The position numbers and the translations under genes are program-made. The notes beneath the pieces were generated by a model. The model did not search any database. It was not told the origin of the DNA and saw only the letters and a program-made list of their open reading frames with translations. From a virus: DNA of 42,538 nucleotides. This document shows, piece by piece, positions 4,927-36,373 of the stretch. Each line of letters begins with the position of its first letter. Positions within the stretch are counted from its first letter, which is position 1. Location: IMG/VR virus record IMGVR_UViG_3300037585_001111, positions 1 to 42,538 of that record; one strand, 5' to 3'.

Positions 4927-6548
4927 TGTTTAACATTGGTTTTTCCGAAAAGGTAGAGTGGTCTACTACGGTATCAACCAGTAAGGCCACTAATACAACA
5001 GCGAGTACAAGTAAATCTACAACAACTACGTGGTCGACTAGTAATAGTACAACGACCACGTACAATACTAGTAAGTCTACTACGACTACTTATAACACTA
5101 GTAATAGTACGACTACGACATATAATACGACTCGTGCTACAGCAACGACAACTACGTTTAATACAAGTCATAGTACTACAACTACTTATAATACCAGCAG
5201 TAGTACTACAACTACTTACAATACGACTCGTGCTACAGCAACGACAACTACGTTTAATACAAGCCATAGTACTACTACAACGTATAACACGACTCGTGCT
5301 ACAGCAACTACGACTACATTTAGTACGAGTCATAGCACCACTACGACGTATAATACGAGTCATAGTACAACGACTACTTACGGAACTAATACAACTAGGA
5401 GTACTACAACTACTTACAACACAAGTCACAGTACTACTACAACTTATAGTACAAGTAAAAGTACTACTACGACTACAACATTCAATACTAGCCACAGCAC
5501 TACTACAACGTATAATACAAGTAAGAGTACTACAACTACGTATGGAACGAATACAACTCGCAGTACTACAGAGACATATAATACTAGCCATAGTACTACT
5601 ACAACGTATAATACAAGTAAGAGTACTACAACTACGTATAGTACAAGTCACAGTACTACAACTACGTTTAATACAAGTCAGAGTACTACAACTACGTATA
5701 GTACAAGTAGATCTACAAGTCACATGACTTGTAATTACTGTGGTACTAAAGGTCATCAGGATTTTAGTACTTCGTATACAACTACGTTTAATACAAGTAA
5801 GAGTACTACTACAACTTGGAGTACAAGTAAAAGTACTACAGAGACATATAATACTAGCCATAGCACTACAACGACGTATAGTACAAGTAAAAGTACTACT
5901 ACAACTTATAGTACAAGTCATAGCACTACTACTACGTTTAGTACAAATACAAGTCACAGTACTACTACAACTTATAGTACAAGTCATAGCACTACAACAA
6001 CTTACAGTACATCTAGAAGTACAAATACGACTACGACGTATAATACGAGTCACAGTACAACGACTACTTATAGTACATCACATAGTACGACAACAACGTA
6101 TAGTACGAATACTACTAAAAGTACTACGACAACTTATAGTACAAGTAAAAGTACTACTACAACATATAATACAACTAGAAGTACAAATACTACAACAACT
6201 TTTAGTACAAGTCATAGTACGACAACAACGTATAGTACGACTAGGAGTACAAATACTACTACAACTTTTAGTACATCACATAGTACTACTACAACTTGGA
6301 GTACGTCACATAGTACTACTACAACGTATAGTACAACTAGAAGTACTAATACAACTACGACTTTTAGTACGTCACATAGTACAACAACTACGTATAGTAC
6401 GTCACATAGTACTACAACTACGTACAGTACATCACATAGTACAACGACTACATTTAATACAAGTCAGAGTACTACAACTACGTTTAATACAACGTCTAGT
6501 ACTACAACAACTTTTAACACACAAAGAACAACTAACTTTTATTCATAA
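4926..6548 (+). CDS. Thr/Ser-rich tandem-repeat virion protein with a CxxC-x4-H insert
   Basis: Almost the whole 540-residue protein is made of about 10-residue units of the form (N/S)TS(H/K/N/Q/R)STTTT(Y/F/W), with some longer units that add a TTRATA or TTRSTN segment. One aromatic residue closes each unit. The only break is at residues 266-282, where C269, C272 and H277 form a CxxCx4H pattern like an incomplete zinc knuckle. The N-terminus (MFNIGFSEKVEW) is the only other non-repeat part. There is no signal peptide or membrane segment. The gene is coupled to the tail fibre by TAATG and followed by a putative glycosyltransferase. I infer an extended beta-fibre or mucin-like stalk on the virion; similar low-complexity proteins occur in marine phages, but I know of no proven function. 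Confidence 0.7.
   Translation: MFNIGFSEKVEWSTTVSTSKATNTTASTSKSTTTTWSTSNSTTTTYNTSKSTTTTYNTSNSTTTTYNTTRATATTTTFNTSHSTTTTYNTSSSTTTTYNTTRATATTTTFNTSHSTTTTYNTTRATATTTTFSTSHSTTTTYNTSHSTTTTYGTNTTRSTTTTYNTSHSTTTTYSTSKSTTTTTTFNTSHSTTTTYNTSKSTTTTYGTNTTRSTTETYNTSHSTTTTYNTSKSTTTTYSTSHSTTTTFNTSQSTTTTYSTSRSTSHMTCNYCGTKGHQDFSTSYTTTFNTSKSTTTTWSTSKSTTETYNTSHSTTTTYSTSKSTTTTYSTSHSTTTTFSTNTSHSTTTTYSTSHSTTTTYSTSRSTNTTTTYNTSHSTTTTYSTSHSTTTTYSTNTTKSTTTTYSTSKSTTTTYNTTRSTNTTTTFSTSHSTTTTYSTTRSTNTTTTFSTSHSTTTTWSTSHSTTTTYSTTRSTNTTTTFSTSHSTTTTYSTSHSTTTTYSTSHSTTTTFNTSQSTTTTFNTTSSTTTTFNTQRTTNFYS
4960..6540 (+). repeat. Degenerate ~30-base tandem repeats inside the Thr/Ser gene
   Basis: At DNA level the gene is a run of units close to AGTACTACAACTACGTATAA followed by TACAAGTCAT. 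The units keep frame but use mixed ACT, ACA and ACG codons for Thr. The codon mixing lowers identity between neighbours, yet several adjacent units still share runs longer than 15 bases, so unequal recombination could change the copy number. Confidence 0.8.
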
Positions 6549-9704: not shown

Positions 9705-9731
9705 GATACTCCCCTTATAGGGATGAAATGT
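9705..9731 (+). promoter_or_regulatory. Candidate phage promoter or small hairpin before the reductase gene
   Basis: The gap ahead of the reductase contains ACTCCCCTTATAGGGATGA. It ends in a TATAGGGA core identical to the start-site side of T7-type promoters and also forms a weak 4-base stem (TCCC/GGGA). No other + strand gap between 500 and 33000 is clearly longer. A true promoter would need the same block at other late genes, which I see only weakly (around 405-427 and 2008-2030). Confidence 0.22.
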
Positions 9732-9753: not shown

Positions 9754-11523
9754 ATGAACAATACTTATTACAATGGACCAACAGTAGAAATATCAAAAGA
9801 AATAGACAAGATGAAGTATTGTCAAGAAGACGAGTCATTTGATGATAAAGTACGACGGATAGCAGGTTCATTATCTGACGGACAAGAGCATAAGTACGAA
9901 CTGCAGGATATTCTAGGTGAGATGAGATTCTTACCAGCTGGCAGGGTACAAAATGCAATGGGATCTAGGCGGATTACAACCGCATACAACTGTTTTGTAT
10001 CAGGTACAATCGAAGATTCTATGAGTAATATAATGGAACGGGCCACAGAGGCTGCAGAAACCATGCGACGAGGAGGAGGTATCGGATATGATTTTTCATT
10101 ACTCCGTCCAAAAGGGGATCTCATTAAGTCCTTGGATTCCAAGTCGTCTGGGCCCGTATCTTTTATGGGCATATTTGACTCTATTTGCCAGACGATTGCA
10201 AGTTCGGGACATAGACGGGGCGCGCAGATGGGTGTTTTACGGGTGGACCATCCGGATATTAAAGACTTCCTTACTGCTAAACGTAATTCTGATAAGCTTA
10301 CTGGTTTTAATATTAGTGTTGGTATAACAGATGCGTTTATGGAATCACTTAAATTTGGTGATAACTATGAACTAATATTTGAAGGTATTGTCAGAGGTGA
10401 AGAGAGTGCTTCTGAAATATGGGAAATGATAATGGAGAGTACGTGGGACTGGGCAGAACCAGGCGTACTATTCATAGATAGAATAAAAGAAATGAATAAT
10501 CTTTATTACTGTGAAGATATATCGGCTACAAATCCTTGTGGAGAGCAGCCGCTACCACCTTACGGTGCTTGTCTATTAGGTTCATTTAACTTAACTGGAT
10601 ATGTTTATGAGAATACACCTAATGGTAAAGCACCTTATGTATTCGATTTTCAACAGTTTAAAAAAGATATACCTGCGGTAGTTAGAGCTATGGATAATGT
10701 AATAGACCGTACAATATATCCATTAACTCCTCAAGCAGATGAAGCAAAGAATAAAAGAAGGATGGGGTTAGGACTTACAGGACTAGCGAATGCTGGAGAG
10801 ATGATCGGATATCCTTACGGATCTGAAAGTTTTCTAGCATGGGCAGAAAAAGTATTTGCATGTTTAAGAGACAATACATATAAAGCTTCTGCAAAGTTAG
10901 CTAAAGAGAAGGGACCATTCCCTATGTATCGAGAAGAGTATTTAAAAAGTAATTTTGTCAGGTCTTTACCTGCTTCAGTTAAAAAGGAAATACGCAAACA
11001 TGGCATCAGGAACTCACACCTTACCTCGATTGCTCCAACTGGTACCATCAGCTTGGTGGCGGACAACGTCAGTGGAGGAATTGAACCAGTCTTTTCACAT
11101 CACTATGACCGTACCATCCAGACTTTTGACGGACCGATCGTTGAAAGAGTTGAGGACTATGCGTACTCAAAAGGAATCGAAGGACGAACCGCAAACTCAA
11201 TTACAGTTCAAGAACATTTAGCTGTTCTTCTATTAGCACAACACTACGTTGATTCAGCTTGTAGTAAAACTTGTAATGTGGGGGACGACGTATCGTATGA
11301 AGAGTTCAAACAGGTCTATATGGATGCCTGGAGTGGCGGGGCGAAGGGATGTACAACGTTCCGAGCAGCGGGGAAAAGATTCGGAATCCTCAATGCGCCC
11401 GTGGAAGAGGAAAAGAAGAATAAGAGCGAGACTCAAAACACTGGAGAGACGAGTGAGACGGAAGAAGATACGTATATGGCTTGTTTCATTGACCCGCAGA
11501 CCGGTCAGCGAGAGTGTTCTTGA
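9754..11523 (+). CDS. nrdJ: Class II (adenosylcobalamin-dependent) ribonucleotide reductase
   Basis: The 589-residue enzyme makes deoxyribonucleotides for phage DNA synthesis. Seen: RFLPAGRVQNAMGS near the N-terminus, NCFVSGTIEDSM with the redox Cys at 80, a GGGIGYDFSLLRPKGD block, and NPCGEQ at 260-265 giving the catalytic N260, C262 and E264. SKTCNVGDD and GAKGCTTFRAAGKR lie near the end; these match class II enzymes rather than class I NrdA. No ATP-cone and no small-subunit gene are present. The C-terminus has Cys residues around a 10-residue spacer, not a clear Cys pair. It is shorter than most bacterial NrdJ. GAGGAC lies before the ATG. Base composition changes sharply along the gene, suggesting mosaic origin. 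Confidence 0.88.
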   Translation: MNNTYYNGPTVEISKEIDKMKYCQEDESFDDKVRRIAGSLSDGQEHKYELQDILGEMRFLPAGRVQNAMGSRRITTAYNCFVSGTIEDSMSNIMERATEAAETMRRGGGIGYDFSLLRPKGDLIKSLDSKSSGPVSFMGIFDSICQTIASSGHRRGAQMGVLRVDHPDIKDFLTAKRNSDKLTGFNISVGITDAFMESLKFGDNYELIFEGIVRGEESASEIWEMIMESTWDWAEPGVLFIDRIKEMNNLYYCEDISATNPCGEQPLPPYGACLLGSFNLTGYVYENTPNGKAPYVFDFQQFKKDIPAVVRAMDNVIDRTIYPLTPQADEAKNKRRMGLGLTGLANAGEMIGYPYGSESFLAWAEKVFACLRDNTYKASAKLAKEKGPFPMYREEYLKSNFVRSLPASVKKEIRKHGIRNSHLTSIAPTGTISLVADNVSGGIEPVFSHHYDRTIQTFDGPIVERVEDYAYSKGIEGRTANSITVQEHLAVLLLAQHYVDSACSKTCNVGDDVSYEEFKQVYMDAWSGGAKGCTTFRAAGKRFGILNAPVEEEKKNKSETQNTGETSETEEDTYMACFIDPQTGQRECS

Positions 11524-22103: not shown

Positions 22104-25100
22104 ATGAAGAGTTTAACAGACCCTACAAACAGGGATACTGAACTAGCTATGGTGACTAAAGGAGAATTTGTTTCTCCAAAGGAAACTATGGAGATTTATG
22201 GTCCGACACTAGCAGCACAAAGGAATCATGGGCTTGCTCTAAGAGCAGCTCGTAATAAAGCTTTCTTAGAAGGCAAACCTATACCTAAGATAGTACCTCC
22301 TCCTCCTGAGATAACTGCAATGAACTCAGGTGGTATAATGTTATCAGATGAAGACAAAGATCTATTAATTAGAATGGCTGCTGCAGAAGCTAGAGGTGAA
22401 GACCTTACATCACAAGCTGGTGTTATGTATGTTGCTTTAAATAGACAAAAGGCAAATAGAGAAGAGCATGGTGGTGATAAACTACATGATATAATAAAGA
22501 AAAAGCATGCGTTTACTTCTACACTAGATCCTACAAATAGCTACTGGTACGATAAGAAGAATACTGATATAAAAACGTCTGCAGAATATAAGAAAGCTGC
22601 AAGTATTCTCGAAGGTATCTTAAGTGGTGAGATAAAAGATCCTACTAATGGAGCTGAATTCTTTTTAAATGAAGAGCTTACTAGACAGCAACGTAAAGAT
22701 GGTAAATTACCTGGGTGGTATGACAATGTGAAAGCTAAGAAGCGTCTCGGTAAACATACATTTGCTCAGCATCCTGATTATGTAGAAAAGGTAACTAAAT
22801 CTATTGTACCTTCAGTACGCGGTGCGCAAAATCGTATTATACCAGAATATAACCCAGGTGGTTTTGTTGGAGGTTTACCCATGGAAGAAGAAGAAGAAGA
22901 TCCCATAATGAATTTCATGAAGAACCATCAAGGTAGGTTAGGTGACGTTAATCCTGAAGATGTAGCAGCTGGTATAATATCAGATGAGTATCTACTACAG
23001 AACTCTTCAGATTCAGGAGCCAATAGCTTTAGGGAAGCTAATCAAATGCAGTATGGAGATCCAAGACAATCTATCTCTATGCCTGGCGCATTCATGGGAA
23101 ATATGACAGATGCTCAATCGTTACGTGGTGGTAATATTAGACCTGACATGATGCCTCCTGGTTATGTTCCACCTAAACCAGAAGTAATTCAACGTACTAC
23201 ATCGCCTCAAGGTGGTGCAGATAGAATTGCTTTTAATAACATAACATCTAATTTAGATTTACAAGTTCCTCGCAGTGGTGGATTGATGAATGCTGTTGTA
23301 CCTCCTGCTAATGCAGGTGTAGGTGATTGGATTGAAAACTGGAAAGCTGAAGTAGCTAAGTACAAAGCTATAATGAACAATCCTGATATGTATAATAGAA
23401 TGAGTCCTGCAGAAAAAGAGCTTATGATCTCTAAAAGAAAAGAGTTAGAGAATAAGATAGGTGAAAGTAATAGAGCTAAACTAACTCAAATACCTTACAT
23501 GGATATGGCTAACCCAACAAACCGTAAGATGTATCCAGCAGCAGATGGCTATGATTTAAATAACGAAATGCCATTACAATCTAGCTCTGAATACACTCCT
23601 CTATATCAAAACATGTTTATGCACGGCGGTGATGGAACCACTGGATTTGAAAGAGATGCTGCTATTGTTAAAAATAATCCTTTAGGTATATTTACTCCTG
23701 AGAATGAAAAGGCATATGCAGAAAAGGCTTTAGAAATAGCTCAAGATCAACTTGAAAACTTAGATGGTGAAACAACTCTTAATCCTTTTAGTGCTAACTT
23801 TGATTTTCGACTGTTACCTAACCCAGGTGAAGTTATAGAAGAAAGAGCTAACCGAGCATTAGAAGCTAAGAACAAAGCGTTAGCAGATATAGCAGTAGCA
23901 GATGAAAAGATAAAAGCAAAGAATGAAGAAGAAGCCCGTAAAGATGTTGACAGAATAAATAGAAGAATACAATCTTTAGAGAATGCTAAGCTAAACACTA
24001 ATTCACCTGAAGCAAAAGCCGCTTTGGATAAAGAAATTAATAAGCAGAAAAGCTTACTGAATGATCTTAATGACGAATTTAATTTTGATGATGATAAGAA
24101 AGGTGATGATACACCAACTGATCCTTATGCAGGCACACAGGTAGATAAGATTGTAGCTGAGCTTGCTAAGAAGAACGGTGGTAGATTTCCTGCTAACTTA
24201 GAAGATGCTGCTGCTAAGGGTAAACTAGAAGATGCAGGAAGAAGAGTAAATCCTAAGAGTAAAACATGGGAAAAAGCTAAAAGCTTCTTAAAAGATCTGT
24301 TTGGAGATATCTTTAATAAGAAAGATCTTGGTAAAGCAATAGCTATATACCTAGGTGCTAGAATATTTGGCGCTTCACCTAACCAAGCAGGTGCTATGGC
24401 AGGTAAATATTACTTAGCTAGACAAGATAAGCATGAAGCTAACGTTGCAGCCTACATGAAGGCTGGTAAACATAAGCCTTCTTCTATCGCTAAGTTCGCT
24501 AAGACTAGGAATTTAAATGATTTAGAACTTATTGGTACATTAGTTAGTCCTACTAATACATATGAGACTTTTTACAAACGTCTTCGTAATGGTAAAGAAA
24601 TTAAGGTAATGGCTAGAAAGTATAAGATAGGTGAGGATGGTTCTGGTTGGAAGATTCAAATAGATGATCCTGATAATCCAGGAAAACGTATATGGGTAGC
24701 CTTCGATCCTACTCAAGGCTTTACTACTGATGGTAGTAGGTTTAGGTCTGGTGGTGATGAGTATACTAAGGAAGTAGCTAGACTACAAAAGCTAGGTGCA
24801 ACATTAGTTAAACCAGAATTGTCAATTCTAGATGATAAGGGTGTTGAAAAGAGAATCTTTGAAAACTTTAATGAACAGAAGGCTGGTGTTCAATGGGGAG
24901 CATGGCTTATAGATAATAATATACCTGCTGATACTGGAACTGAAATGCTTAACATGGCTGTTACTATGATGAAGCAAGAGAAGAAAAGAGATCCAAAGAA
25001 GAAAGCTGGTTATGGTTCTATAAAACCTTACTTAGATAAGACATTTGTTATAGTTAAGACTGAAGGTACTGGAGTTAGTGGTGTAGCATTTAAGAACGCT

Positions 25101-25406
25101 GATGGTGAATATATTCCTGCTACTGATTTAGATAGAGCTATTTCTAATGTACGCGCGACAGCTATAAAAGCTAATCCTGAGATAGCAAATTATAATCCAG
25201 TTATGGTAGATACAATGATTGTTAAGAATGCTGGTATAAACTATCAAGCATACTTAGATAGAATACTAAAGAACAAGCCTACAGATATGAGTGATATAGA
25301 TTTCTTAAATGAGAACGATGATTTTAGAATTAGAGCTCAGAATATGGACCCTCAGACTACTCCTTTGTACGAGTTCATGAGAGCAGGTGGTATTAACGCT
25401 ACATAG
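22104..25406 (+). CDS. Virion protein with a SleB-like cell wall hydrolase domain
   Basis: This is a 1100-residue protein. The N-terminus has AMVTKGEFVSPKE, a motif seen at starts of phage tape-measure or internal proteins. Residues about 84-225 look like a Hydrolase_2 / SleB domain: LLIRMAAAEARGEDLTSQAG with E95 as the likely catalytic acid, VALNR, then GAEFFL and KHTFAQHPDY near the end. Such domains cut peptidoglycan; in a virion protein it would open the wall for DNA entry. A charged coiled coil follows (about 590-680, ending in DDDKKGDD), then a basic, Ala-rich part and a soluble C-terminal domain. GGAGAG lies before the ATG. Confidence 0.62.
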   Translation: MKSLTDPTNRDTELAMVTKGEFVSPKETMEIYGPTLAAQRNHGLALRAARNKAFLEGKPIPKIVPPPPEITAMNSGGIMLSDEDKDLLIRMAAAEARGEDLTSQAGVMYVALNRQKANREEHGGDKLHDIIKKKHAFTSTLDPTNSYWYDKKNTDIKTSAEYKKAASILEGILSGEIKDPTNGAEFFLNEELTRQQRKDGKLPGWYDNVKAKKRLGKHTFAQHPDYVEKVTKSIVPSVRGAQNRIIPEYNPGGFVGGLPMEEEEEDPIMNFMKNHQGRLGDVNPEDVAAGIISDEYLLQNSSDSGANSFREANQMQYGDPRQSISMPGAFMGNMTDAQSLRGGNIRPDMMPPGYVPPKPEVIQRTTSPQGGADRIAFNNITSNLDLQVPRSGGLMNAVVPPANAGVGDWIENWKAEVAKYKAIMNNPDMYNRMSPAEKELMISKRKELENKIGESNRAKLTQIPYMDMANPTNRKMYPAADGYDLNNEMPLQSSSEYTPLYQNMFMHGGDGTTGFERDAAIVKNNPLGIFTPENEKAYAEKALEIAQDQLENLDGETTLNPFSANFDFRLLPNPGEVIEERANRALEAKNKALADIAVADEKIKAKNEEEARKDVDRINRRIQSLENAKLNTNSPEAKAALDKEINKQKSLLNDLNDEFNFDDDKKGDDTPTDPYAGTQVDKIVAELAKKNGGRFPANLEDAAAKGKLEDAGRRVNPKSKTWEKAKSFLKDLFGDIFNKKDLGKAIAIYLGARIFGASPNQAGAMAGKYYLARQDKHEANVAAYMKAGKHKPSSIAKFAKTRNLNDLELIGTLVSPTNTYETFYKRLRNGKEIKVMARKYKIGEDGSGWKIQIDDPDNPGKRIWVAFDPTQGFTTDGSRFRSGGDEYTKEVARLQKLGATLVKPELSILDDKGVEKRIFENFNEQKAGVQWGAWLIDNNIPADTGTEMLNMAVTMMKQEKKRDPKKKAGYGSIKPYLDKTFVIVKTEGTGVSGVAFKNADGEYIPATDLDRAISNVRATAIKANPEIANYNPVMVDTMIVKNAGINYQAYLDRILKNKPTDMSDIDFLNENDDFRIRAQNMDPQTTPLYEFMRAGGINAT

Positions 25407-25419
25407 AATGGAGTCATAA

Positions 25420-28400
25420 ATGGCAGAAATAGAAGAACAAGACTTCCTACAATCTATAATTGATTACAAACCTAATATGATTGGAGTTATGGAAGCTGTT
25501 GACGGTGATACTGTTATTCACCCTGACATAGATAAGCCTGTTAGACTTGAAGGCTATGATACACAAGAAGTACCTAAGTGGATTGAAGGTGAATATAAAG
25601 CTGGTACTGCAGGTGGTGAAACAGAAGCTAATGTATTAACTCGTCTTGCAAATGAGATGGGTTATACTGAACTAAGGTTACGTCGTGATAGTCGCGGTAG
25701 ACCGATAATAGATAGTACTAAGAAGAGATACTTAGGGGATCTATATAATGACAAAGGTCAATCATGGAAACGTAAGTTACTTAGTGAAGGTATACAGAAT
25801 CCTACTAAATATACATCTCAAGAAAATAGAATATTCTTTGAATTAGAACAACAAAGAAGACAAGAAGAGTTTTCAGCAGGTCTATATGAAGAAGATGAAT
25901 GGTCTCGTGCAAGAGAAGATATACTAGCTGCGTTAGATAGAGAAGGGTATAGGAAAGCAGGCATAAAGCTTATAGCTCAAGATGAAAGAGAGTTAAAGTA
26001 CATGAGAGATATGGGGCTAGGTAATTACTTTACTGATGCTGAAGTTGTATCTCGAAGTGGTGATAGAACTCTTCTCAATAAAGCTTTAGATCCTACAAAA
26101 GATACTTGGAATAAAACCTGGGTAGGCGTAAGAGAAGCATCGTTTGGTGTTGTTGAAGCGTTCGGTGATCTAACACATTGGGATGCTGTTTCACAAATAG
26201 GTGAGATGGGAGTTGAAAGAGCACGTAGACAAGTTGAACCTTATGCTGAGTCTATACAGTCTTATAAAGATGTAGATGGTTTTTATAGCGGTTTAGAATA
26301 CTTTACTAATATGTTAGCTATGTCTGTACCTTACATGGGTATAACAGCAGCTGCTTACTTTGCTGCTCCTGCTACTATGGGAGCATCTCTAGCAATACCT
26401 TCATCATTGTATGCTGGTCAAACTTATAATGAGATGGACGATAAGAATAAGAATGTTGGCGTTGCAGCTATATCAGGTGTAACTCAGATGGCATTAGATA
26501 TGCTGGGTCTTAGATATATTATGAAGTCTCCTATAGCTAGTAAAGAGTTATTTCAAAAAGCTTATAAAGAACTAGTGAATAAAGGTATGGCTCCAGCTCA
26601 AGCTAGACAAGAAATAGGTAGAGCAACAAGAGTATCTTTAGCTAAGTTTGCAGGTGATGCAGCTAATGAAGCATCTAAGCAGTTAGCTGCTAAACAAGTA
26701 TTCATAGACTTAATTAAGAGACAAGCTAAATCTGGTACTATGGAAAGTGTTACTGAAGGACTACAAGAAGCTACAGCTTATCTTGCAGCACACCATAAAG
26801 ATATTGGTGAAGGTGTAATAAACATGGAAGAGCTAGTCTCTCGTACTACAGAAGGTATGGTTGCAGGCGCTGTGTTAGGTGGTGGTATAGCAACAATGGG
26901 TGGTGTACAGAACTATGCTGGCTGGACTGATGTTAAGTATAGATTAGCACCTGCTCATGAGAAAGATTTATCTACTGCTTCTATGTTATCAGAGTTAGAA
27001 GCTAAGTCTAAAGAAGGAATGAAGTCTAATGAAGAGAATGCTGCTGATGCAGCTGCAAGGCATGAGACGTACAAGAGAGCTGGCGGATATGATACTTTAT
27101 ATAGTGAACCTGAACATCTTATAGTTAGGACTGATGAAGAATTAGCTCGTCGTAAGGAGCAAGGTCTTTTCGAAGAGGCTAAAGAAAGGTTTATGAATCC
27201 TCTAGGATTATTTCAAGGTTCTGTTCCTAATGCTATAAGTAATTCTGATGCTATACAGTATAGAGCATTAAGAAGATTAAGAGACTTACTTGGTGGTGTA
27301 CTACAAAGAGTGTATGATGGTGAAAACTTCATGTCAACTAAGCATCATGCTGTTGCTATATATAAGAATATGGTTGCTCCAGATAAAATGTTCTTTAAAG
27401 AAATGGGAGAAACTGGTAGACTTAATATGAAAGCAAGAGAAAGAGCTAGTCATAATCTAATAAACTTTACTAAGAAGTATGCTGGAAATAGTAAGGTTCC
27501 TCGATCTGAAGAAGAGATAGATAAACATTATGAGAAGACTGTACCTAAAGATTTACCTAATAGAACTAATTTAATAAAGCATGCTAAGCTTATAGAATTA
27601 CTTTCTAATAAACTACGTAGAGATCAGGTAGCTGCTGGTGCTAAGATGGGATATATTCCTAACTACTTATTTAGATTTAAAGCTCCGAATAAGCGTGCCA
27701 TATATAAAGATAAAGCAGAGTTTCAGAAGTTACTTCAAGAAGAATATAACTATACTCCTGATGCAGCTAAGAAAAGTACTGATGAGTTAATAGATAATCA
27801 TGAAGTATATGATCTAGACTCTGCAACGTTTAGTGTTACTAACCAAGGTATTGTACCTTCTGCTCATAGAAAGAGATCATTAAACCTATCAGAGAATCCT
27901 AAGTTTGATAAGTTTATGGATCAAGATATATACAATAATATTAGTCAATCATCTAAACAAGCTGCTAGATTTATAGGACATCGTAAGTTTATAGGTGAGA
28001 ACGCTAAGATTATAAATACTTTACTTCATGAAGCTGAATACGAAGATGGCGCTCCTAGAGCGAAAGTAAACAAGATAGCTAGACTAGTTAAAGATGTACT
28101 TGATTCAGACTCAGGTAACTATAACAGACCTACCACAGAGATGGGTAAGAAACTTATGAGGTTGCAAAGAAACTTCTTAACACTAAGTACCTTTGCATCA
28201 CTACCGTTAGCTGCTATATCATCTTCAGTTGAGTTAGGTCTTGTAACTAAAGGCTTGACAGCTGATGAAATATTTAGTACTAAGAAAGGTAAAGATGGAC
28301 AGCACTTAGGATTAAGAGGTATAGGTAGAGAGTTAGGTAAATCTATATGGGATGGAACTAAAGAGATAGCAGACTTAGGTACTCAAAGATCTTCTGATGA

Positions 28401-29502
28401 TATATTCTCTTGGGGTCAGCAAAGACTTCGAGAGTTAGGTCTATATGATTGGTCAGTTGGTGCGGCTACAGTTACAGGTGTTACTGAAACTAATGCAGCA
28501 CAACAGATGTACTTCGAAGCTTTCTTTAAATGGAATGGTTTAACTGGTATTACTAACTTACCTAGAGCTATGAGAGCTTCTTTATTCGGAGACTTCTTAT
28601 ATAATAGAGTAGAAGAAATACATTTACATCGTCAAAGTGGAGACCCTAAGACAAGATCTGTACAAGAAGCTGAGCAACAACTACGTGATTTAGGTGTTCG
28701 TATAAGCGGAGACAATAATATTGTTGATCTAATGTTTGATTCAGATCTAATAGCTACTGGTAAAGACTTAACAGCTCTTAATCCTACTGGAGAAGGAACT
28801 ATATCTATTAAGTTGACAGGAAATAATCCACTGGCAATTGATCGTGTTAAGTTTAAAGAAGAAATGCTAGGTAAGCAAGTACAAGAAGCTACCTTTAATT
28901 TTATTAGAGATGCTGTTGCATTACCTGATGCTGCCAACAGACCATTGTTCTATCAAGATCCTCGGTTTGCTTTGTTCTTTCAGTTTCAAGGTTTTATAGC
29001 TACATTTACAGCTAACCATATACCTAAGTTATGGGGTGAGTACATTAAACGAGGTACTCCAGCATTAAAGTATAATGCATTTGCTACTATGTCAACTATG
29101 ATTATGCTTAGCTTTGCTTCACAGTATCTTAAAGATCTACTTAAATACGGAGAGTCTACTCCTTACTTAGATGATGCTGAGTATTATCAGAGAGGTATAA
29201 GATCTTCTGGATTATTAGGTACAAGTGAAAGGATTATAGATCAGTTCATGCCTTTGTACGATTATAGATCTGGATCAGGTCCTAGTGCTTGGGTGTTTGA
29301 TACAACAACAAGTGAGGCTCCTGCTTTAGGCTATGCTAAAAGAACGTTAGGTGCTATGCGCAAATTCTCTGAAGGTGATGTAGGAGAATCAGTAAGACTA
29401 GGTACTAAGCTACTTCCTGTTGTTGCACCGTTTAATCAGATCGGTAATCAATGGGGTAAATTCGCAGATAGATGGAACTTTAACAATAGTGGAATAGAAT
29501 AA
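25420..29502 (+). CDS. gp16-like DNA ejection protein with an N-terminal SNase-like nuclease domain
   Basis: This is a 1360-residue protein. Residues about 20-125 match staphylococcal nuclease: D28-G-D30-T, R42-L-E-G-Y-D47-T-Q-E50, and R103-Y-L-G-D-L-Y...G...LLSEG. These positions correspond to the Ca2+-binding Asp residues and the catalytic Arg-Glu-Arg of the family. The rest looks like the largest internal core protein of T7-like phages: a Gly/Ala hydrophobic stretch (PYMGITAAAYFAAPATMGAS, about 305-325), long charged helices, and a C-terminal part with QDPRFALFFQFQGFIATFTA and a Gly/Leu helix, typical of gp16-type proteins that form the trans-envelope channel. It is followed by a TAATG overlap with the next gene. 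The nuclease assignment is from the residue pattern; activity is not shown. Confidence 0.62.
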   Translation: MAEIEEQDFLQSIIDYKPNMIGVMEAVDGDTVIHPDIDKPVRLEGYDTQEVPKWIEGEYKAGTAGGETEANVLTRLANEMGYTELRLRRDSRGRPIIDSTKKRYLGDLYNDKGQSWKRKLLSEGIQNPTKYTSQENRIFFELEQQRRQEEFSAGLYEEDEWSRAREDILAALDREGYRKAGIKLIAQDERELKYMRDMGLGNYFTDAEVVSRSGDRTLLNKALDPTKDTWNKTWVGVREASFGVVEAFGDLTHWDAVSQIGEMGVERARRQVEPYAESIQSYKDVDGFYSGLEYFTNMLAMSVPYMGITAAAYFAAPATMGASLAIPSSLYAGQTYNEMDDKNKNVGVAAISGVTQMALDMLGLRYIMKSPIASKELFQKAYKELVNKGMAPAQARQEIGRATRVSLAKFAGDAANEASKQLAAKQVFIDLIKRQAKSGTMESVTEGLQEATAYLAAHHKDIGEGVINMEELVSRTTEGMVAGAVLGGGIATMGGVQNYAGWTDVKYRLAPAHEKDLSTASMLSELEAKSKEGMKSNEENAADAAARHETYKRAGGYDTLYSEPEHLIVRTDEELARRKEQGLFEEAKERFMNPLGLFQGSVPNAISNSDAIQYRALRRLRDLLGGVLQRVYDGENFMSTKHHAVAIYKNMVAPDKMFFKEMGETGRLNMKARERASHNLINFTKKYAGNSKVPRSEEEIDKHYEKTVPKDLPNRTNLIKHAKLIELLSNKLRRDQVAAGAKMGYIPNYLFRFKAPNKRAIYKDKAEFQKLLQEEYNYTPDAAKKSTDELIDNHEVYDLDSATFSVTNQGIVPSAHRKRSLNLSENPKFDKFMDQDIYNNISQSSKQAARFIGHRKFIGENAKIINTLLHEAEYEDGAPRAKVNKIARLVKDVLDSDSGNYNRPTTEMGKKLMRLQRNFLTLSTFASLPLAAISSSVELGLVTKGLTADEIFSTKKGKDGQHLGLRGIGRELGKSIWDGTKEIADLGTQRSSDDIFSWGQQRLRELGLYDWSVGAATVTGVTETNAAQQMYFEAFFKWNGLTGITNLPRAMRASLFGDFLYNRVEEIHLHRQSGDPKTRSVQEAEQQLRDLGVRISGDNNIVDLMFDSDLIATGKDLTALNPTGEGTISIKLTGNNPLAIDRVKFKEEMLGKQVQEATFNFIRDAVALPDAANRPLFYQDPRFALFFQFQGFIATFTANHIPKLWGEYIKRGTPALKYNAFATMSTMIMLSFASQYLKDLLKYGESTPYLDDAEYYQRGIRSSGLLGTSERIIDQFMPLYDYRSGSGPSAWVFDTTTSEAPALGYAKRTLGAMRKFSEGDVGESVRLGTKLLPVVAPFNQIGNQWGKFADRWNFNNSGIE

Positions 29503-32500
29503 TGTCAAAATTTAATCGTGGATCCAGGTCGACCCGTTCTCAACCAATAGCGAGAGGTGGAGATGCTGAAAAAGCATTAAGAGATAAAACAGCTAGAGCA
29601 TTTGTAGGCGAACAGTTAAGCCAACAAGATCCTGAAGTAAGAGCTTTCTTTGAGAGTATTATAGGTATAACTCCTGAAGAGATAGAACAAGCTCAAGTAG
29701 AAGGTGCTAATATAGATAAGAACTTTAGAGGAGATACCTTTACTGGTACTCCTGATGTAAGGTTCACTGACGAAGATGTGAATGAAGGTGTAGTTCCAGA
29801 TGAGCTATACCGACCAAATATAAAGGAGCGTCAAGCAGCTTCAAGAGCTGGGGAGACTCCTAACTATCAGTTAAGACGTCCAGAAGAAAAGCCTACTAAG
29901 AGTAGATACTTTGCTGGTAAGGAGTTTAAGAGTGCTTCTAGTTACGATGGTGGTTTAACGAATCGTCTTAAGAAAGGATTAATTAATATACACACTAATG
30001 GATTGTTTAGACTAGGTACTAATCCAGTAGGTCAGACATATCCTGATGCTGCTAAGGTTGGTAAAGGTACTAACATTGATGGCGTGTATACTCCACCACC
30101 GCAACAGTCAGTTAGTCCTAAGATACAGCAGGCTGCAGTACAAGAGCAAACTGGAAGTAATAAGTCTGGTGACTATGATCTTAAGTTAGTTAGAGCTATC
30201 ATGAAAGGTGGAGGTCTAGCTTACAATAAAGATGTAGCTGAAGGATCTCATATGCCTTCACAAGACTACGATAGAGTAGCTTTACTTGTAACTGAGAATG
30301 CTATTGCTGATAGAACCTATTTAGCTGTAGATGATTTTGAAGTTGATCCTATTACTGGTGAGAAAATAACTGATGAGACTAGAGAACAATTGCTTGCACG
30401 AGAGCAAGTAGCTGCAGAAGAGAAGCGTTTAACAACAGGTGTTTCAGTTACTATGGCTGCAGGTAATGGAGCTTTAGGTAATCAGATACACCAAGAGTGG
30501 TTACGTCTTAATCCTGATCTTGAAAAGACTAAACTAACTAGAGAAGAAGCAGAGACATTAGGTTCAGGTTATAAAGAACTATATGCTAATCTAAATCCTG
30601 ACATACTACAACGTGTTGAGACTAAGTTTGAACAAACAGAGTTTAGACTACTTGATAGCGCTGTACCTGATCTTATAGCAGGTCAGTCTATACGTCAAGC
30701 ACTATTCCCTAAGCAGGTTATAAAACCACTAACAGCTCCTATGTTCTCTGGTACTATTAGTGAAGGAGATATGGCTAACTTTACTAAGGTAGTATTAGGT
30801 CCTGTAGGTGAGAAGCAAGTAAAAGAAATACTTAAAGCATTTAAAAACTTAGGATCTGTTGGTCATGTAGTTGATAAACGTAGGAATAAGATACTTCTTT
30901 CAACATTACTTAGACACTTAAATAATAATGATGTTATGTCTTGGGAAGCTGAGATACATGGTATGGGTGAGACTAAAAATAAAGAGTATCTTGCTAAAGA
31001 GAAGTTTGATACTAGACAGATGCTTTTAGATGGTTATGTATACAACGATGAAATAGGTTATTACACACACCCTAATGAGAGTTATCCTGATATACATCCA
31101 AGCTATATGTATAATGCTAGTGAGGTTATGAACAACTCATTAGATAGTTATGCGCAACAAGTTCATGCTATACAAGCAGCAAGGAATCAAATAAGTTATT
31201 TAACATTTGCTGCCTTAGGGTATAACCAACGTCTTATACCTCAGCAAACTCACTTTAATCCTGTTACATCTAAAGTAACTAGGTATGTAACTAGAGCTGC
31301 TAGACCTGACGTAATAAAACCTGCGTCTATAGAAGAGAATAACTTACGACAGATGTATGCAGCTATATTAGTTGATGGTACAGCTAAGAAACTAGATAGA
31401 GTAAGAGAAGAGAAGCTAAGAGCAGCAACTCCAAAGTTAAGAGAGTGGGGTAATATATTAAGAGAGCTACAGCAAGTAAGTGATAGCGACTACGAAATGG
31501 TTGCTGATGCTATAGCTAATAAGATACCTCTCAATGATCCTGCGTGGCCTGTTGATGCAGCTAATAGAGTTGCTGGTAGTCTTCAGTTAGATCCACAACA
31601 GCATGGTGAACTCATGGCTGCTATTAAAGCTAAAGGTGGCTTTGAAGGTTTAGTATACATAGATGGTTTAATAGACTTTGCTAACTACATGGATGCAAGG
31701 ACAGCTGGTAAGAACTTTACTACATTCTTTAATGCTTATCCTGATGGTATCACTAATGGTATTGCATCTAATGCTGTACAGATGGGTCATAGACAGACAG
31801 CTAAACGTACTGGTATCATAAGAGAGAATGATGTAGGTGATTTACTTGATGACGGCGATATTAGAGATGCTGTTGCTAGAACTTCTCTTGCATCTATAGG
31901 TGACGGCTGGAATAATATTAAACAAGATAGTGAAGAAGGTATCACCATGACTTCACACTTGAACACAGTAGCTAATGAACTATATGGTTTTAAAGACTTA
32001 AATAAAAGTACTACCATGGTTTATGGTTATGGTATGGAGTTGCAGAGTTTCTGGATTAAGTTTAGAGATAGTCTTAACTTAAAGTTAGAATATGATAACC
32101 CAGATTTAAAACACGCATATGAATACCTGATGAGTAAAGAAGCTTTTGACAATGATTTAGACGCTTTATCTGTGATTTTAAATGAGAAGTATTCTGTATC
32201 GCTTGAAGACACTATGTCTACTGATGCGATACAATCAAGACGATTAGTACGTGCAGCTGCTGGTATGCATATAGCGTTAGACGAGAACTTTAGAATTGAC
32301 TTGCCACTAGGTAAAGGTGCTTATGGTAGGTATGTATCTGAAGGTCAAGCTACTGCTGATGTAACTACATTTAATATATATGAACCAGAAGGTTATGATG
32401 CTGAAGGTAACGTACTTCCTGATCCAGAAACTGGTAAGCCTAGACTTAAGAAGCAGGCTAGAAAATCAGTACACTATAAGAGACGTATGACTGCAGCTGC

Positions 32501-33350
32501 TGCTAAACCTGCTGGAGGTGGTAAGACCTTTGGTAAGTATGCTTATGGTGGTGCTTTACCTGGACCTATACAAGCGCTTGACGCTGTTACAATTGTAAAG
32601 ACTGCAACAGGTAAATCATGGAACGATATATCTAATGCAGGTGGTGGTAACCCTTACATGTTTAGTATATATGATGCTGTTAAAGTAACTGCAGGTAATA
32701 TGCACGTAGTATTAGATGAGATAAATAATAACTGGTTTAACGAGTCTATGAAGTACTCTTATCTACAAGCTATGAGAGATGCTACTGTAGCTAACATGAA
32801 AAAGTTTAGACAGAACAAAGCTAAAGTTCTTAAAGAGATGGGTGATCAACCTATACCTATAATTAAAGCTGGATACATGCATCAGGTACTACAACCTACA
32901 GAGTTTTATGTTCAGAAGGATGGTAGTAAGAAACCTAACTTTGCTAAGTCACCATTAACTAAACAGTTAAGTAAAATGGCTGCTAAACCTGAAGGTAAAG
33001 TAGATGCGGTTACTGGAAGACCTATAACTACAGACAGTCAAGCGTTCTTCAATCAAGTAAGAGACTTTGCTAGAGGAATGTATGCTGCTCTTAAAAAAGT
33101 AGGATTTGATTATCGTATTAATGAAGAAGACTACGGTCTTCCAGAATTAGAAGAGTTTGCAGCCAATACAACTTACAGACAATACTATGCTTTTGTTGAA
33201 GAGTTCTACAGACTATTAGACTTTGAGAGCCGTATGAACAAGATGATAGCTAAGACAAATGCTAATAAGAAGTTGTTAGCTGAAGAGCTAAAGAAGAATG
33301 GTCATAAGTCAAGAAGTGGACGTATGGTACCTAGACAATACGAACTTTAA
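29502..33350 (+). CDS. Candidate virion RNA polymerase (divergent single-subunit RNAP)
   Basis: The 1282-residue protein shows, in order, the four landmarks of T7-family RNA polymerases. (1) YNQRL at 574-578 then FNP at 585-587 aligns with the T7 'DWRGRVY...MFNPQ' block. (2) FANYM...FNAYPDGITNGIASNAVQMG aligns with motif A, the metal-binding Asp being D748. (3) K835-STTM-VYG-Y843-G aligns with motif B (K-x3-M-x3-YG), but Lys replaces the usual Arg four residues before. (4) PGPIQALDAVTIV then SIY1057-D1058-AVKV aligns with motif C, with Tyr for His before the second catalytic Asp. About 550 N-terminal residues have no clear match. It is the last gene of the internal-virion block, so it may be packaged and injected as N4 vRNAP is; N4's is about 3500 residues. 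Found by eye, not by search. Confidence 0.6.
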   Translation: MSKFNRGSRSTRSQPIARGGDAEKALRDKTARAFVGEQLSQQDPEVRAFFESIIGITPEEIEQAQVEGANIDKNFRGDTFTGTPDVRFTDEDVNEGVVPDELYRPNIKERQAASRAGETPNYQLRRPEEKPTKSRYFAGKEFKSASSYDGGLTNRLKKGLINIHTNGLFRLGTNPVGQTYPDAAKVGKGTNIDGVYTPPPQQSVSPKIQQAAVQEQTGSNKSGDYDLKLVRAIMKGGGLAYNKDVAEGSHMPSQDYDRVALLVTENAIADRTYLAVDDFEVDPITGEKITDETREQLLAREQVAAEEKRLTTGVSVTMAAGNGALGNQIHQEWLRLNPDLEKTKLTREEAETLGSGYKELYANLNPDILQRVETKFEQTEFRLLDSAVPDLIAGQSIRQALFPKQVIKPLTAPMFSGTISEGDMANFTKVVLGPVGEKQVKEILKAFKNLGSVGHVVDKRRNKILLSTLLRHLNNNDVMSWEAEIHGMGETKNKEYLAKEKFDTRQMLLDGYVYNDEIGYYTHPNESYPDIHPSYMYNASEVMNNSLDSYAQQVHAIQAARNQISYLTFAALGYNQRLIPQQTHFNPVTSKVTRYVTRAARPDVIKPASIEENNLRQMYAAILVDGTAKKLDRVREEKLRAATPKLREWGNILRELQQVSDSDYEMVADAIANKIPLNDPAWPVDAANRVAGSLQLDPQQHGELMAAIKAKGGFEGLVYIDGLIDFANYMDARTAGKNFTTFFNAYPDGITNGIASNAVQMGHRQTAKRTGIIRENDVGDLLDDGDIRDAVARTSLASIGDGWNNIKQDSEEGITMTSHLNTVANELYGFKDLNKSTTMVYGYGMELQSFWIKFRDSLNLKLEYDNPDLKHAYEYLMSKEAFDNDLDALSVILNEKYSVSLEDTMSTDAIQSRRLVRAAAGMHIALDENFRIDLPLGKGAYGRYVSEGQATADVTTFNIYEPEGYDAEGNVLPDPETGKPRLKKQARKSVHYKRRMTAAAAKPAGGGKTFGKYAYGGALPGPIQALDAVTIVKTATGKSWNDISNAGGGNPYMFSIYDAVKVTAGNMHVVLDEINNNWFNESMKYSYLQAMRDATVANMKKFRQNKAKVLKEMGDQPIPIIKAGYMHQVLQPTEFYVQKDGSKKPNFAKSPLTKQLSKMAAKPEGKVDAVTGRPITTDSQAFFNQVRDFARGMYAALKKVGFDYRINEEDYGLPELEEFAANTTYRQYYAFVEEFYRLLDFESRMNKMIAKTNANKKLLAEELKKNGHKSRSGRMVPRQYEL

Positions 33351-33403
33351 AAAAAAATAACCCCGATAGAAATCCACATGGAAATCTATTGGGGTTTTTT
33401 ATT
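33349..33403. terminator. Bidirectional terminator between convergent operons
   Basis: AACCCC (33359-33364) pairs with GGGGTT (33391-33396). The stem continues through ATAGA/TCTAT and TCC/GGA around a 4-base loop, with one 2-base internal mismatch. An A run lies before it (33349-33357) and a T run after it (33395-33400), so it works on both strands. It ends the late + strand unit and the - strand replication unit, whose last stop codon starts at 33405. Confidence 0.88.
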
Positions 33404-33663
33404 TAAAGTAATCCGTTCTTAGCGTATAGTTCTTTTATACCTCTTTCAGCTTCTTTCTTTTTCATAGTCGCATCTTCTTCTGATACACCTGCTTCTAAGT
33501 TTAGCTTATAAGTTATGTCTAGCATTATGTCATTAATTCTAGGTGTATACAATGCATCAGTTGGTATTTCAGGATACTCTTCCTGTAGTTCTACATCATC
33601 TACATCTACTCCTCGTAACGCTAAGTAATTATAATTTATTCTTTCTCCTTCTGTTGTGGACAT
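33403..33663 (-). CDS. Small acidic hypothetical protein
   Basis: This is the 86-residue last gene of the - strand operon, with a perfect AAGGAGGT ribosome binding site 5 bases before the ATG. The product is acidic in the first half (VDVDDVELQEEYPEIPTD) and charged and helical in the second (EEDATMKKKEAERGIKELY). It has no membrane segment. I do not recognise it. Being next to the RNA polymerase gene, it could be a regulator of either polymerase, but nothing in the sequence shows this. Confidence 0.6.
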   Translation of the reverse strand: MSTTEGERINYNYLALRGVDVDDVELQEEYPEIPTDALYTPRINDIMLDITYKLNLEAGVSEEDATMKKKEAERGIKELYAKNGLL

Positions 33664-33675
33664 ATTAACCTCCTT

Positions 33676-35973
33676 TTATGCGAAGAAATAATCAGAATCT
33701 TCTATGCCATTTATACTTAGGCTGCCTAACTCTGGTTGTTCAACGTCTATTTCTTCTTTATCTGTTATTATCTGTTCTTCTATGTAGTTGTAGAAGTTAT
33801 CTACATCGTACATATCTATGAACTTACGTTTAGTGTGAGCAAGTAATAGCTCTACATCACAAGCATGCGTTGAAAAACTATCGTGCACAGCGCCAAACTC
33901 TCCATTCCAATCGTCTATTACGAGTGCCATATGACTAGCGTCCATAGAGTGAACAAAGTTAGGTGATATTCCTGTCATAAATCCTCTTATACTAGGAAGT
34001 TTAGTTGCTACTTGGGCACAGTGTTGTACAACGCCACGTTTATTGTACGTAGTGTATCCACTTATAGTACCTTTAGCTTTACGCTTTTGCATTTGAAAAT
34101 TAGTATACTCTACTGGAAACCCTGATGGAGTTGTCCAGCATAGCTTATCTTTACCATTACCGTATACTAATCTAGATTCATATGAGTTTATAAATTGAAC
34201 TAGCTTACTCAACTCTTCTAGTTCCTCATCTGTCTTATCTTTCTTTATATAAAGTTCTTTCTGTCTGGCGATAACATCTGAATATTCTTTACCTGCTATC
34301 TCTCCCTCTGGAGAAAACTTTACATACTTTCCTATCTCAAATAGAGCTAGCTTCTGTAAGTATGACATAGTACTTAGTGGTCCTGGACATACTTTGTCTA
34401 TTGCTTTGATTAGAATCTTAGCAAACTTGTTACAGTCATCTTGTGTAATACCATATATAGTATGGTAGTCTTCTACTTTAGAATCAAAGAACATGTTCTC
34501 TGCAATCTTACTAGCACCTGCAGAATACGCTCTTGTCATTGATCCGCGTTTAGTTATACCCTTACGTATATGTTTCATAGGCATAGAGTTTAGTATGCTT
34601 TTTAATCTATCATCTTCAGTAAGCTTAATTAACTCTTTAGCTGCCTGCACGTAGAAATCTTTTTGTATTACAGTAGGTATTAACCCAACAAGATCGCCTG
34701 TCTGAGTATCCTTAGACATAGATCCTAAGTGCTGCCAACCGTTGTTGCTACCGTCGATAGGTATAGGTAAATGTGACATGTGTAGTCTATGATCTTTCTT
34801 AGCTTCATGGTAGTCGTACCATTCAACACAACACGCTAAGAATGATACAGTCTTTTCGCATGGTACAAAAGAAGTAGTACGTCCTAATTCAACTATCCAA
34901 TCCATGTTATTGTTTACCCAGTTAACTCTATCTTCTAAAGTCATTTTATCTACAGATATATCTTCTAGTCCTTCTGATTTAAGATAACCTTTATAGTCTT
35001 GCTCAGTCCACTCAGGTATCTCGTCTATCTTGTAGCTTTCGTTATAGCTGACAGCTGTATGCACTGCTAACCAGAATAAACCACTGTCTGTCATTGGCTT
35101 ACCTCTAGCAAACTTCAACATACCTCTAGATAAATCAGATCCTTGAAAGTTTAAGAAGGGTTCTATGTAATAGATTCTACCACGATAATCTGCATCTACG
35201 TATTGGTAAAACACATCATGATCCTTTAGTAGCTTAGCCTTAGATGTAATGAACTTCCATTCCATAACTTTACTACGTCGTTTCATTTCTTTTACATCGT
35301 TATTCTCATAAGGTTCTTCGCGTAAGAACGTACTCTTGCTATTAAGTAATGCGTCATATACTTTTCTATTTATACGCCAGCCAGTTTTCTGTAGCTTATT
35401 CATAGCATTTATATATGGTTGTTTTAGATTTAAGTGATCATCTTTTAACTTATTCTTAATAACTAAATGTCTATCATTCTGTACCATAGAAGTAATAGAC
35501 TTTGGTAACGTAGTTCTTGTAGCTGTTAAGTTAATACGTGTAGTAGCTTCGTGCAAGTCTGCTAACTCGATCCACTTAGGTGTAGCAGATATTATATGGC
35601 TGCTATCTCTTATTCTTGGGTAATATAAATCTATAAAACCACAGTTATAAAAGCCTTCGACAAACAGATCACCTAATCGTAACTCCATAGACCAAGGCAA
35701 CTTATCTCTTTTAAGCAGCCTATGTATATGTTGACCGATTTTAAATGATGTGTTAGTCAATTGTGAAGTACCTGCAGGGCTATCACTTGTATCTTTAGTA
35801 AATAATATTTGTATAGTCTGCAGTGCGGAGTTAACAAATATATCCATGTCTTCTTTATAATTTTTATGTAACTTTAATAATACCCCACCAGAGTTAGCTT
35901 TCGGATTGTTTATATTTATTCCATCCACTTTCTCTAAGAGGTAGCTGGTTACTTGATCTATAGGTTTTGACAT
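33676..35973 (-). CDS. T7-type single-subunit DNA-directed RNA polymerase
   Basis: The 765-residue enzyme transcribes phage genes. Landmarks: DADYRGRIYYIEPFLNFQGSD (T/DxxGR block); PIDGSNNGWQHLGSM with catalytic D407 (motif A); KGITK475-RGSMTRAY483 (motif B); FVHSMDASHMALV and AVHD698-SF (motif C). It is shorter than the T7 enzyme (883), with a reduced N-terminal domain. The frame opens with TTG at 35976, but the ATG at 35973 has GAGG 5 bases upstream and is the better start. It overlaps the deaminase gene by 80 bases. It lies near the end of its operon, unlike T7 gene 1, which is the first major early gene. Confidence 0.93.
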   Translation of the reverse strand: MSKPIDQVTSYLLEKVDGININNPKANSGGVLLKLHKNYKEDMDIFVNSALQTIQILFTKDTSDSPAGTSQLTNTSFKIGQHIHRLLKRDKLPWSMELRLGDLFVEGFYNCGFIDLYYPRIRDSSHIISATPKWIELADLHEATTRINLTATRTTLPKSITSMVQNDRHLVIKNKLKDDHLNLKQPYINAMNKLQKTGWRINRKVYDALLNSKSTFLREEPYENNDVKEMKRRSKVMEWKFITSKAKLLKDHDVFYQYVDADYRGRIYYIEPFLNFQGSDLSRGMLKFARGKPMTDSGLFWLAVHTAVSYNESYKIDEIPEWTEQDYKGYLKSEGLEDISVDKMTLEDRVNWVNNNMDWIVELGRTTSFVPCEKTVSFLACCVEWYDYHEAKKDHRLHMSHLPIPIDGSNNGWQHLGSMSKDTQTGDLVGLIPTVIQKDFYVQAAKELIKLTEDDRLKSILNSMPMKHIRKGITKRGSMTRAYSAGASKIAENMFFDSKVEDYHTIYGITQDDCNKFAKILIKAIDKVCPGPLSTMSYLQKLALFEIGKYVKFSPEGEIAGKEYSDVIARQKELYIKKDKTDEELEELSKLVQFINSYESRLVYGNGKDKLCWTTPSGFPVEYTNFQMQKRKAKGTISGYTTYNKRGVVQHCAQVATKLPSIRGFMTGISPNFVHSMDASHMALVIDDWNGEFGAVHDSFSTHACDVELLLAHTKRKFIDMYDVDNFYNYIEEQIITDKEEIDVEQPELGSLSINGIEDSDYFFA

Positions 35974-36373
35974 CAAGTCCTCTTTCTTTTAAAAATTGTA
36001 GCGCGTAGCTATCATACATCTCGTCGTATACTACTCTAATAATCCCTGCTTGTAGTATTAGTTTAGCGCACTCAATGCAAGGCGAGTGTGTGGTATATAT
36101 TGTAGCTCCTTCAGAGCTGCCACCTGTTTTAGCTAACTTCATAAGCGCATTAGCTTCCGAGTGGATAACTTCAGGTTTAGTTATACCATCAGGATGTCTT
36201 GTGTGATTACACATACCTGTTGGCATACCATTAAACCCTTGCGAAAGCACCTGTCCATGACGGACTATGATGCTTCCAACTTTTATATCGTCATCAAACG
36301 ATAGCTGACTAAACACGTGAGCTACCGTTAAGTATATCTTATCATAACGTTCCTGTTTGGAATTCAAATCCAT
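35894..36373 (-). CDS. dCMP deaminase
   Basis: This 159-residue zinc enzyme converts dCMP to dUMP, feeding dTTP synthesis. Seen: H-S-E-A-N in VIHSEANALMKLAKT (zinc His and proton-shuttle Glu), then HSPCIECAKLILQAG with the two zinc Cys (PCxxC). DDDIKVGSIIVRHGQVLSQGFNGMPTGM before these is the usual first part of the fold. At the annotated ATG the GGAG touches the start codon; the TTG two codons on (36367) has GGAG at 5 bases and may be the true start. The gene overlaps the primase-helicase at one end and the RNA polymerase at the other. Confidence 0.88.
   Translation of the reverse strand: MDLNSKQERYDKIYLTVAHVFSQLSFDDDIKVGSIIVRHGQVLSQGFNGMPTGMCNHTRHPDGITKPEVIHSEANALMKLAKTGGSSEGATIYTTHSPCIECAKLILQAGIIRVVYDEMYDSYALQFLKERGLDVKTYRSSNQLPLRESGWNKYKQSES

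Follow-up and report, generated by a model that had tools for sequence, protein, structure and literature searches.

A 42,538-base viral fragment from the IMG/VR collection (record IMGVR_UViG_3300037585_001111, hereafter the window) carries an open reading frame (ORF) at 29502-33350 on the plus strand, which starts with ATG and encodes 1282 amino acids (aa), as an earlier note on this DNA had described it. We read its product, with a probability of roughly three in four, as a naturally minimal virion RNA polymerase (vRNAP) of the kind found in phage N4, which would be made late, packaged, injected, and used to read the early genes from hairpin promoters until a T7-like RNA polymerase (RNAP) takes over. 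This reading combines computed evidence on homology, fold, catalytic residues, the place of the gene in a late operon, the presence of two RNAPs, and hairpins before the early genes of close relatives; the early region of the window phage lies beyond the end of the window, a fragment from which roughly 15 kb of the genome are missing. Virion-packaged single-subunit RNAPs are known as giant proteins of N4-type phages, and the N4 mini-vRNAP corresponds to 1106 of 3500 aa.

Single-sequence searches with the window protein were negative against Pfam, PHROGs, PDB, and, by tblastn, the phage collection. Scans of IMG/VR provided first 7 and then 32 relatives with identities of 22-97%, the full-length ones comprising 1116-1385 aa. 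A 30-sequence family profile aligned with a profile of 20 Schitoviridae vRNAPs in hhalign with a probability of 95.9 and an E-value of 5.3e-9 over 696 columns, and the catalytic residues were paired co-linearly (R577/R424, D748/D559, K835/K670, Y843/Y678, and D1058/D951 in the window protein and N4, respectively). The control with a reversed vRNAP profile reached an E-value of 0.43, and the two neighbouring virion-protein families matched neither profile. The vRNAP profile was needed for this result, as hhalign found no match to the N4 mini-vRNAP taken as one sequence; the family profile also had no real match among PDB sequences. Among 27 family members, 14 matched phrog_414 ('RNA polymerase') and one matched phrog_2206 ('virion RNA polymerase'). 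The phrog_414 matches that we inspected cover the region from motif A to motif C, but they are weak and come from more divergent relatives, not from the window protein itself. One relative (L034) also matches the Pfam family RNA_pol weakly.

The catalytic motifs were compared in an alignment of 33 family members. The counterpart of the TxxGR block (residues 565-600, 31194-31301, plus strand) contains R577, K591, and R594, equivalent to R424, K437, and R440 of N4 and invariant in all 30 members that cover these positions. Motif A (residues 738-764, 31713-31793, plus strand) is centred on D748 within a DGxTNG pattern, as at N4 D559; this pattern is found in most sampled vRNAPs and in the window family, whereas the T7-like RNAPs encoded alongside show DGSNNGWQ at this site. 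Motif B (residues 826-850, 31977-32051, plus strand) includes K835, M839, Y843, and G844 (K670 and Y678 are the N4 equivalents), and motif C (residues 1048-1066, 32643-32699, plus strand) contains Y1057-D1058, corresponding to F950-D951 in N4. Seven residues (D748, G749, G753, M839, Y843, G844, and D1058) are invariant in 33/33 sequences, while the K835 position is occupied by Lys in 31 and by Arg in two. The residues named in the earlier note (R577, D748, K835, M839, Y843, G844, Y1057, and D1058) are all found where it had placed them, and its spacings of 87 (D748-K835) and 223 residues (K835-D1058) are therefore right; the conservation of the catalytic residues across the family also argues that these motifs are not chance matches. 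Its remark that the usual motif B Arg and motif C His are missing applies to the window protein, which has K831 and Y1057, but the two deviations are not constant across the family, since Arg is present at the former position in 28 of the 33 sequences and the divergent relatives L029, L033, and L034 carry His-Asp in motif C. The same two substitutions would suit a catalytically dead polymerase relative that serves as a structural ejection protein. We consider this very improbable, because both Asp residues, the Lys, Tyr, and Gly of motif B, and the Arg, Lys, and Arg of the TxxGR block are kept down to about 22% identity, and because the N4 vRNAP is active with no His in motif C (PMC4496689).

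The fold was predicted with AlphaFold2 from 27 sequences, and the model of residues 225-1282 has a mean predicted local distance difference test score (pLDDT) of 77 and a predicted template modelling score (pTM) of 0.76. A Foldseek search of the PDB yielded 71 matches at E <= 0.001, and the best 50 of these 71 are all single-subunit RNAPs, including the yeast and human mitochondrial enzymes, T7 RNAP, and N4 mini-vRNAP, with E-values of 1e-15 to 1e-12. In a viral structure library, the significant matches include annotated vRNAPs. The right-hand polymerase fold, which the earlier note had proposed as a check, is thus recovered in the prediction. It is hardly conceivable that the motifs match by coincidence in a virion protein of unrelated origin: the absence of single-sequence database matches would fit such a case, but the profile comparison, the fold, the PHROG matches of relatives, and the conserved residues point the same way. 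Together with the gene order, these data support the assignment of the window protein as a predicted divergent RNAP with the single-subunit (T7-like) fold, in the style of the N4 vRNAP but much shorter, as had been suggested. Judging from the conserved residues, it would carry out DNA-dependent RNA synthesis.

The polymerase gene is the last of the block of internal core proteins, as originally described, and follows two large virion-protein-like genes on the plus strand. The first of them (22104-25406) encodes an 1100-aa internal protein with a cell wall hydrolase domain (PF07486). The second (25420-29502), directly 5' of the polymerase gene, encodes a 1360-aa internal or ejection-type protein, the C-terminal part of which shares about 24% identity with a 'particle protein' from Vibrio podophages; its stop codon overlaps the ATG of the polymerase gene in the sequence TAATG. 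The vRNAP-type gene faces a convergent gene on the minus strand (33676-35976) for a 766-aa T7-like RNAP (PF00940, E 3.6e-53; phrog_414), so that there are two RNAPs per genome. Between them lies a small conserved ORF of 86 aa (33403-33663, minus strand), which is present in many relatives. The order in relatives is the same, with the internal proteins and the vRNAP-type gene converging on the genes for T7-like RNAP, primase-helicase, exonuclease, and DNA polymerase, and a T7-like RNAP was present in each of the ten longer relative records searched. The window phage also encodes a DnaB-type primase-helicase and a DNA polymerase. The description of this virus as a T7-like podovirus holds only in part: the major capsid protein (cut by the window edge) and the adaptor match SU10 families, and among cultured phages the closest T7-like RNAP is that of Roseobacter phage CRP-7, with 35% identity over the full length.

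The early region was read on contig G008, a 97% relative of the window phage, the far end of which enters the capsid gene found at the start of the window. It contains five hairpins, each of exactly 8 perfect base pairs (bp) and all with the loop CCAAGA in the direction of the early genes; no loop recurred in 40 shuffled sequences. This recurrent 22-nucleotide (nt) element is found before early genes on the G008 contig (L091/L100) and on L097, L098, and L099, and a scan of the collection with seven stem positions left free retrieved no more than four contigs, in each of which the element has a perfect 8-bp stem. In 10 distinct elements, 100% of the alignment cells pair and six of the eight pairs show compensatory changes; the covariation score is 0.550 versus 0.169 in shuffles (0 of 500) and is lost when the partner arm is slid. 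The layout is [stem]CCAAGA[stem]TTATATACA, and in most copies a TTNNATA(C/G)A block follows the stem at a fixed distance. A Shine-Dalgarno (SD) sequence and an ATG are located about 39-68 nt 3' of nearly every CCAAGA hairpin, with the exception of the copy at 1274 in L097. The same scan applied to N4 detected three hairpins (90, 557, and 4546) that precede gp1, gp2, and gp15 by about 29-64 nt, and we equate them with the known early promoters P1-P3. In their DNA folding energies, the CCAAGA hairpins are similar to the N4 hairpins (the N4 early promoters are described in PMC4496689). In a second clade, the element CAGCAA-TCGTNATGG-TTGCTG followed by TTTCATAAACACTTA is present in 24 copies on 16 stretches, with an SD-ATG pair 39-50 nt downstream in all but one; its stem is invariant, so it carries no covariation signal. 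From these features we infer that the CCAAGA hairpins would be promoters of a vRNAP-type enzyme.

Two other readings of the CCAAGA hairpins were rejected. Terminators do not fit, as the stems are AT-rich, lack a U tract, and are not flagged by the terminator scan. Operator dyads do not fit either, because the arms covary and the spacer is invariant, the opposite of what is expected of them.

The main competing explanation of the hairpins is use by the host RNAP, since a -10-like TA(C/G)AWT follows the stem at a fixed distance. They would then have no relation to the enzyme and would be either sigma-70 promoters of the host that include an operator dyad or elements acting at the RNA level, a view that is compatible with a packaged polymerase. 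One copy indeed scores 9/12 as a sigma-70 site (TTGCCC-17-TACAAT), but a variant with the CAAAACAC arm has no -35-like hexamer, and the SD-ATG spacing of the hairpins is as in N4. The invariant 6-nt loop is moreover non-palindromic and the arms covary, against the dyad version, and the terminator scan was negative. We regard this explanation as doubtful overall.

In the clades examined, another class of candidate promoters, a recurrent motif beginning CTATAAGG(A/G), was found on either strand, and it is likely the promoter of the T7-like RNAP. Sites of this type in both orientations also occur in the structural region, which makes the promoter assignment tentative. In the window, the candidate CTATAAGGGGAGTAT (9706-9720, minus strand), recognised by the consensus from relatives, runs against the direction of the structural genes. 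G001, G003, and G004 likewise each have a single site of this orientation in their structural region.

The packaging of the 1282-aa polymerase in the virion is suggested by the combination of these data: a late operon of internal proteins together with a hairpin class confined to early genes is explained most simply by packaging and injection. In the proposed sequence of events, an enzyme reduced to roughly the catalytic core would be produced late, from the last gene of the internal/ejection-protein operon, and packed into the particle to enter the next host together with the DNA. There it would recognise extruded DNA hairpins before the first genes (8-bp stem and CCAAGA loop in the clade of the window) and would transcribe these genes until enough T7-like RNAP has been synthesised to take over at its own CTATAAGG-type promoters. 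Alternatively, an active divergent RNAP might be made late and stay outside the particle, transcribing late genes or aiding replication or packaging beside the T7-like RNAP. Its gene does belong to the late operon, the CTATAAGG-type promoters of both orientations extend to the structural region, and no proteomics for this phage group was found. However, the gene is directly 3' of two large internal/ejection-type proteins, as is the vRNAP gene in N4, and a separate promoter class, that of the hairpins, precedes the early genes, which a late-made enzyme could reach only if carried by the virion. We therefore consider an unpackaged enzyme improbable.

Several results weigh against the interpretation as a minimal virion polymerase. 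The CCAAGA hairpins are known from close relatives, as the corresponding region is outside the window; scans of the G003/G006-type clade, G005, and CRP-7 revealed no recurrent hairpin loop; and the -10-like block leaves room for host RNAP. The window family gave no direct match to the T7-like RNAP family of the same genomes (E 0.39). The link to T7-like RNAPs goes via N4: with the vRNAP profile, in contrast, the T7-like RNAPs of these genomes do align (E 2e-8), so that the N4 vRNAP is the closest known relative. In the structural comparison, the global TM-scores are modest (0.4-0.5) and the placement of domains is therefore approximate, and the model leaves out residues 1-224. With these points considered, it still seems fairly probable that marine podoviruses outside Schitoviridae use a two-polymerase programme, in which a minimal virion RNAP of about 1,120-1,390 aa acts on clade-specific hairpins (the 6-nt CCAAGA loop or the TCGTNATGG hairpin) and is followed by a one-chain T7-like RNAP on CTATAAGG-type promoters.

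Several features of the relatives and of the window were observed in addition. The polymerase relative L007 (locus 2449-6444) has an insertion after motif C with HEVMH at residue 1197, a metallopeptidase signature of the form HExxH that occurs in no other relative. In another relative of the polymerase (L030:9326-13480), a NADAR domain is inserted at residues 967-1074; it matches phrog_1017 with an E-value of 2.5e-9 and PF08719 with 1e-4, which falls short of the Pfam threshold. The relatives L102 and L103 are located on contigs binned in metagenome-assembled genomes of Dehalococcoidia and Bacteroidetes, and these are probably phage contigs in the bins. In the window, the N-terminus of the 1360-aa protein, VDGDTVIHPDIDKPVRLEGYDTQEVP, resembles by eye staphylococcal-nuclease-type domains, with no match in Pfam. 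A gene for the large chain of ribonucleotide reductase (9754-11523) lies within the structural block, and a 540-aa ORF (4926-6548) consists almost entirely of Ser/Thr/Tyr/His-rich repeats (TTTTYNTSHS-like) and has no Pfam family.

A known infection strategy, that of N4, thus appears to have a far more compact counterpart beyond the N4 family. New in this analysis are the recurrent early-gene hairpins of close relatives that resemble N4 vRNAP promoters, together with their second-clade version; in the open-access literature searched, neither a stand-alone vRNAP of such size nor the hairpins of this group were found to be described. A recent survey dropped candidates shorter than 2,500 aa or without ExDGxxxG (PMC10654107), and the group of the window would escape it for this reason. 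If nature provides a vRNAP with about 1,300 residues, it would reveal what gp50 can lose and still be packaged and ejected. It would also provide an intermediate between N4 vRNAP and T7 RNAP, with a T7-like Met in motif B, an N4-like motif A, and relatives with His-Asp in motif C, as well as a second hairpin-promoter system suited to studying how a polymerase and its promoter loop evolve together. Finally, it may help to explain how transcription starts in such marine podoviruses before the T7-like RNAP is made.

Among known systems, the T7-like RNAPs of autographiviruses, including the product of 33676-35976, share the fold and the order of motifs with the window protein. In contrast, the T7-like set from the genomes studied here has DGSNNGWQ in motif A and His-Asp in motif C, and the gene belongs to the replication operon and not to the virion genes. 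In CRP-7, gp33 (MK613349, annotated as 'hypothetical protein'; L035 17859-21566) occupies the same place, 3' of a 1368-aa core protein and facing the T7-like RNAP that is 35% identical to that of the window, and it contains the residues IHDAL, which are similar to motif C in L033/L034. It had no significant match to the family profile (E 0.2), PHROGs were uninformative, and AlphaFold2 gave no usable model of the relatives of gp33 (pLDDT 38). Position and the IHDAL residues make gp33 a suggestive counterpart, for which we do not claim homology with the 1282-aa polymerase. A 2,083-aa vRNAP has been reported in Alteromonas phage R22Y (PMC11705849), likewise a shortened vRNAP in a marine podovirus with two predicted RNAP genes. 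The R22Y enzyme is longer, and the relative with which it was compared is an Alteromonas schitovirus (PMC11705849).

The Schitoviridae vRNAPs comprise 2,842-3,820 aa and carry an ExDGxxxG motif (PMC10654107), and fusion to one or more metallopeptidase domains has been reported for N4-like RNAPs (PMC5512222). In contrast, the window protein has only 1282 aa, and no HExxH was found in it. Two residues before the motif A Asp, it has Y746 (Y-P-D-G-I-T-N-G) and not Glu, which no relative has at this position. By the published criteria of length and ExDGxxxG, it is outside the Schitoviridae vRNAPs (PMC10654107). Further differences from N4 are M839 in motif B, as in T7, a hairpin loop of 6 nt in the clade of the window versus 3 nt in N4, an SU10-type capsid, and a one-chain T7-like RNAP where N4 has the heterodimeric RNAPII (PMC4496689). 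On the other hand, the window protein shares with N4 gp50 and the Schitoviridae vRNAPs an RNAP core with TxxGR and motifs A, B, and C in the same order, the DGxTNG form of motif A, and a motif C that lacks His. The vRNAP gene likewise ends a late block of internal proteins and converges with an opposite operon in both N4 and the window phage, and hairpins are located before the early genes in N4 and in the close relatives of the window phage.

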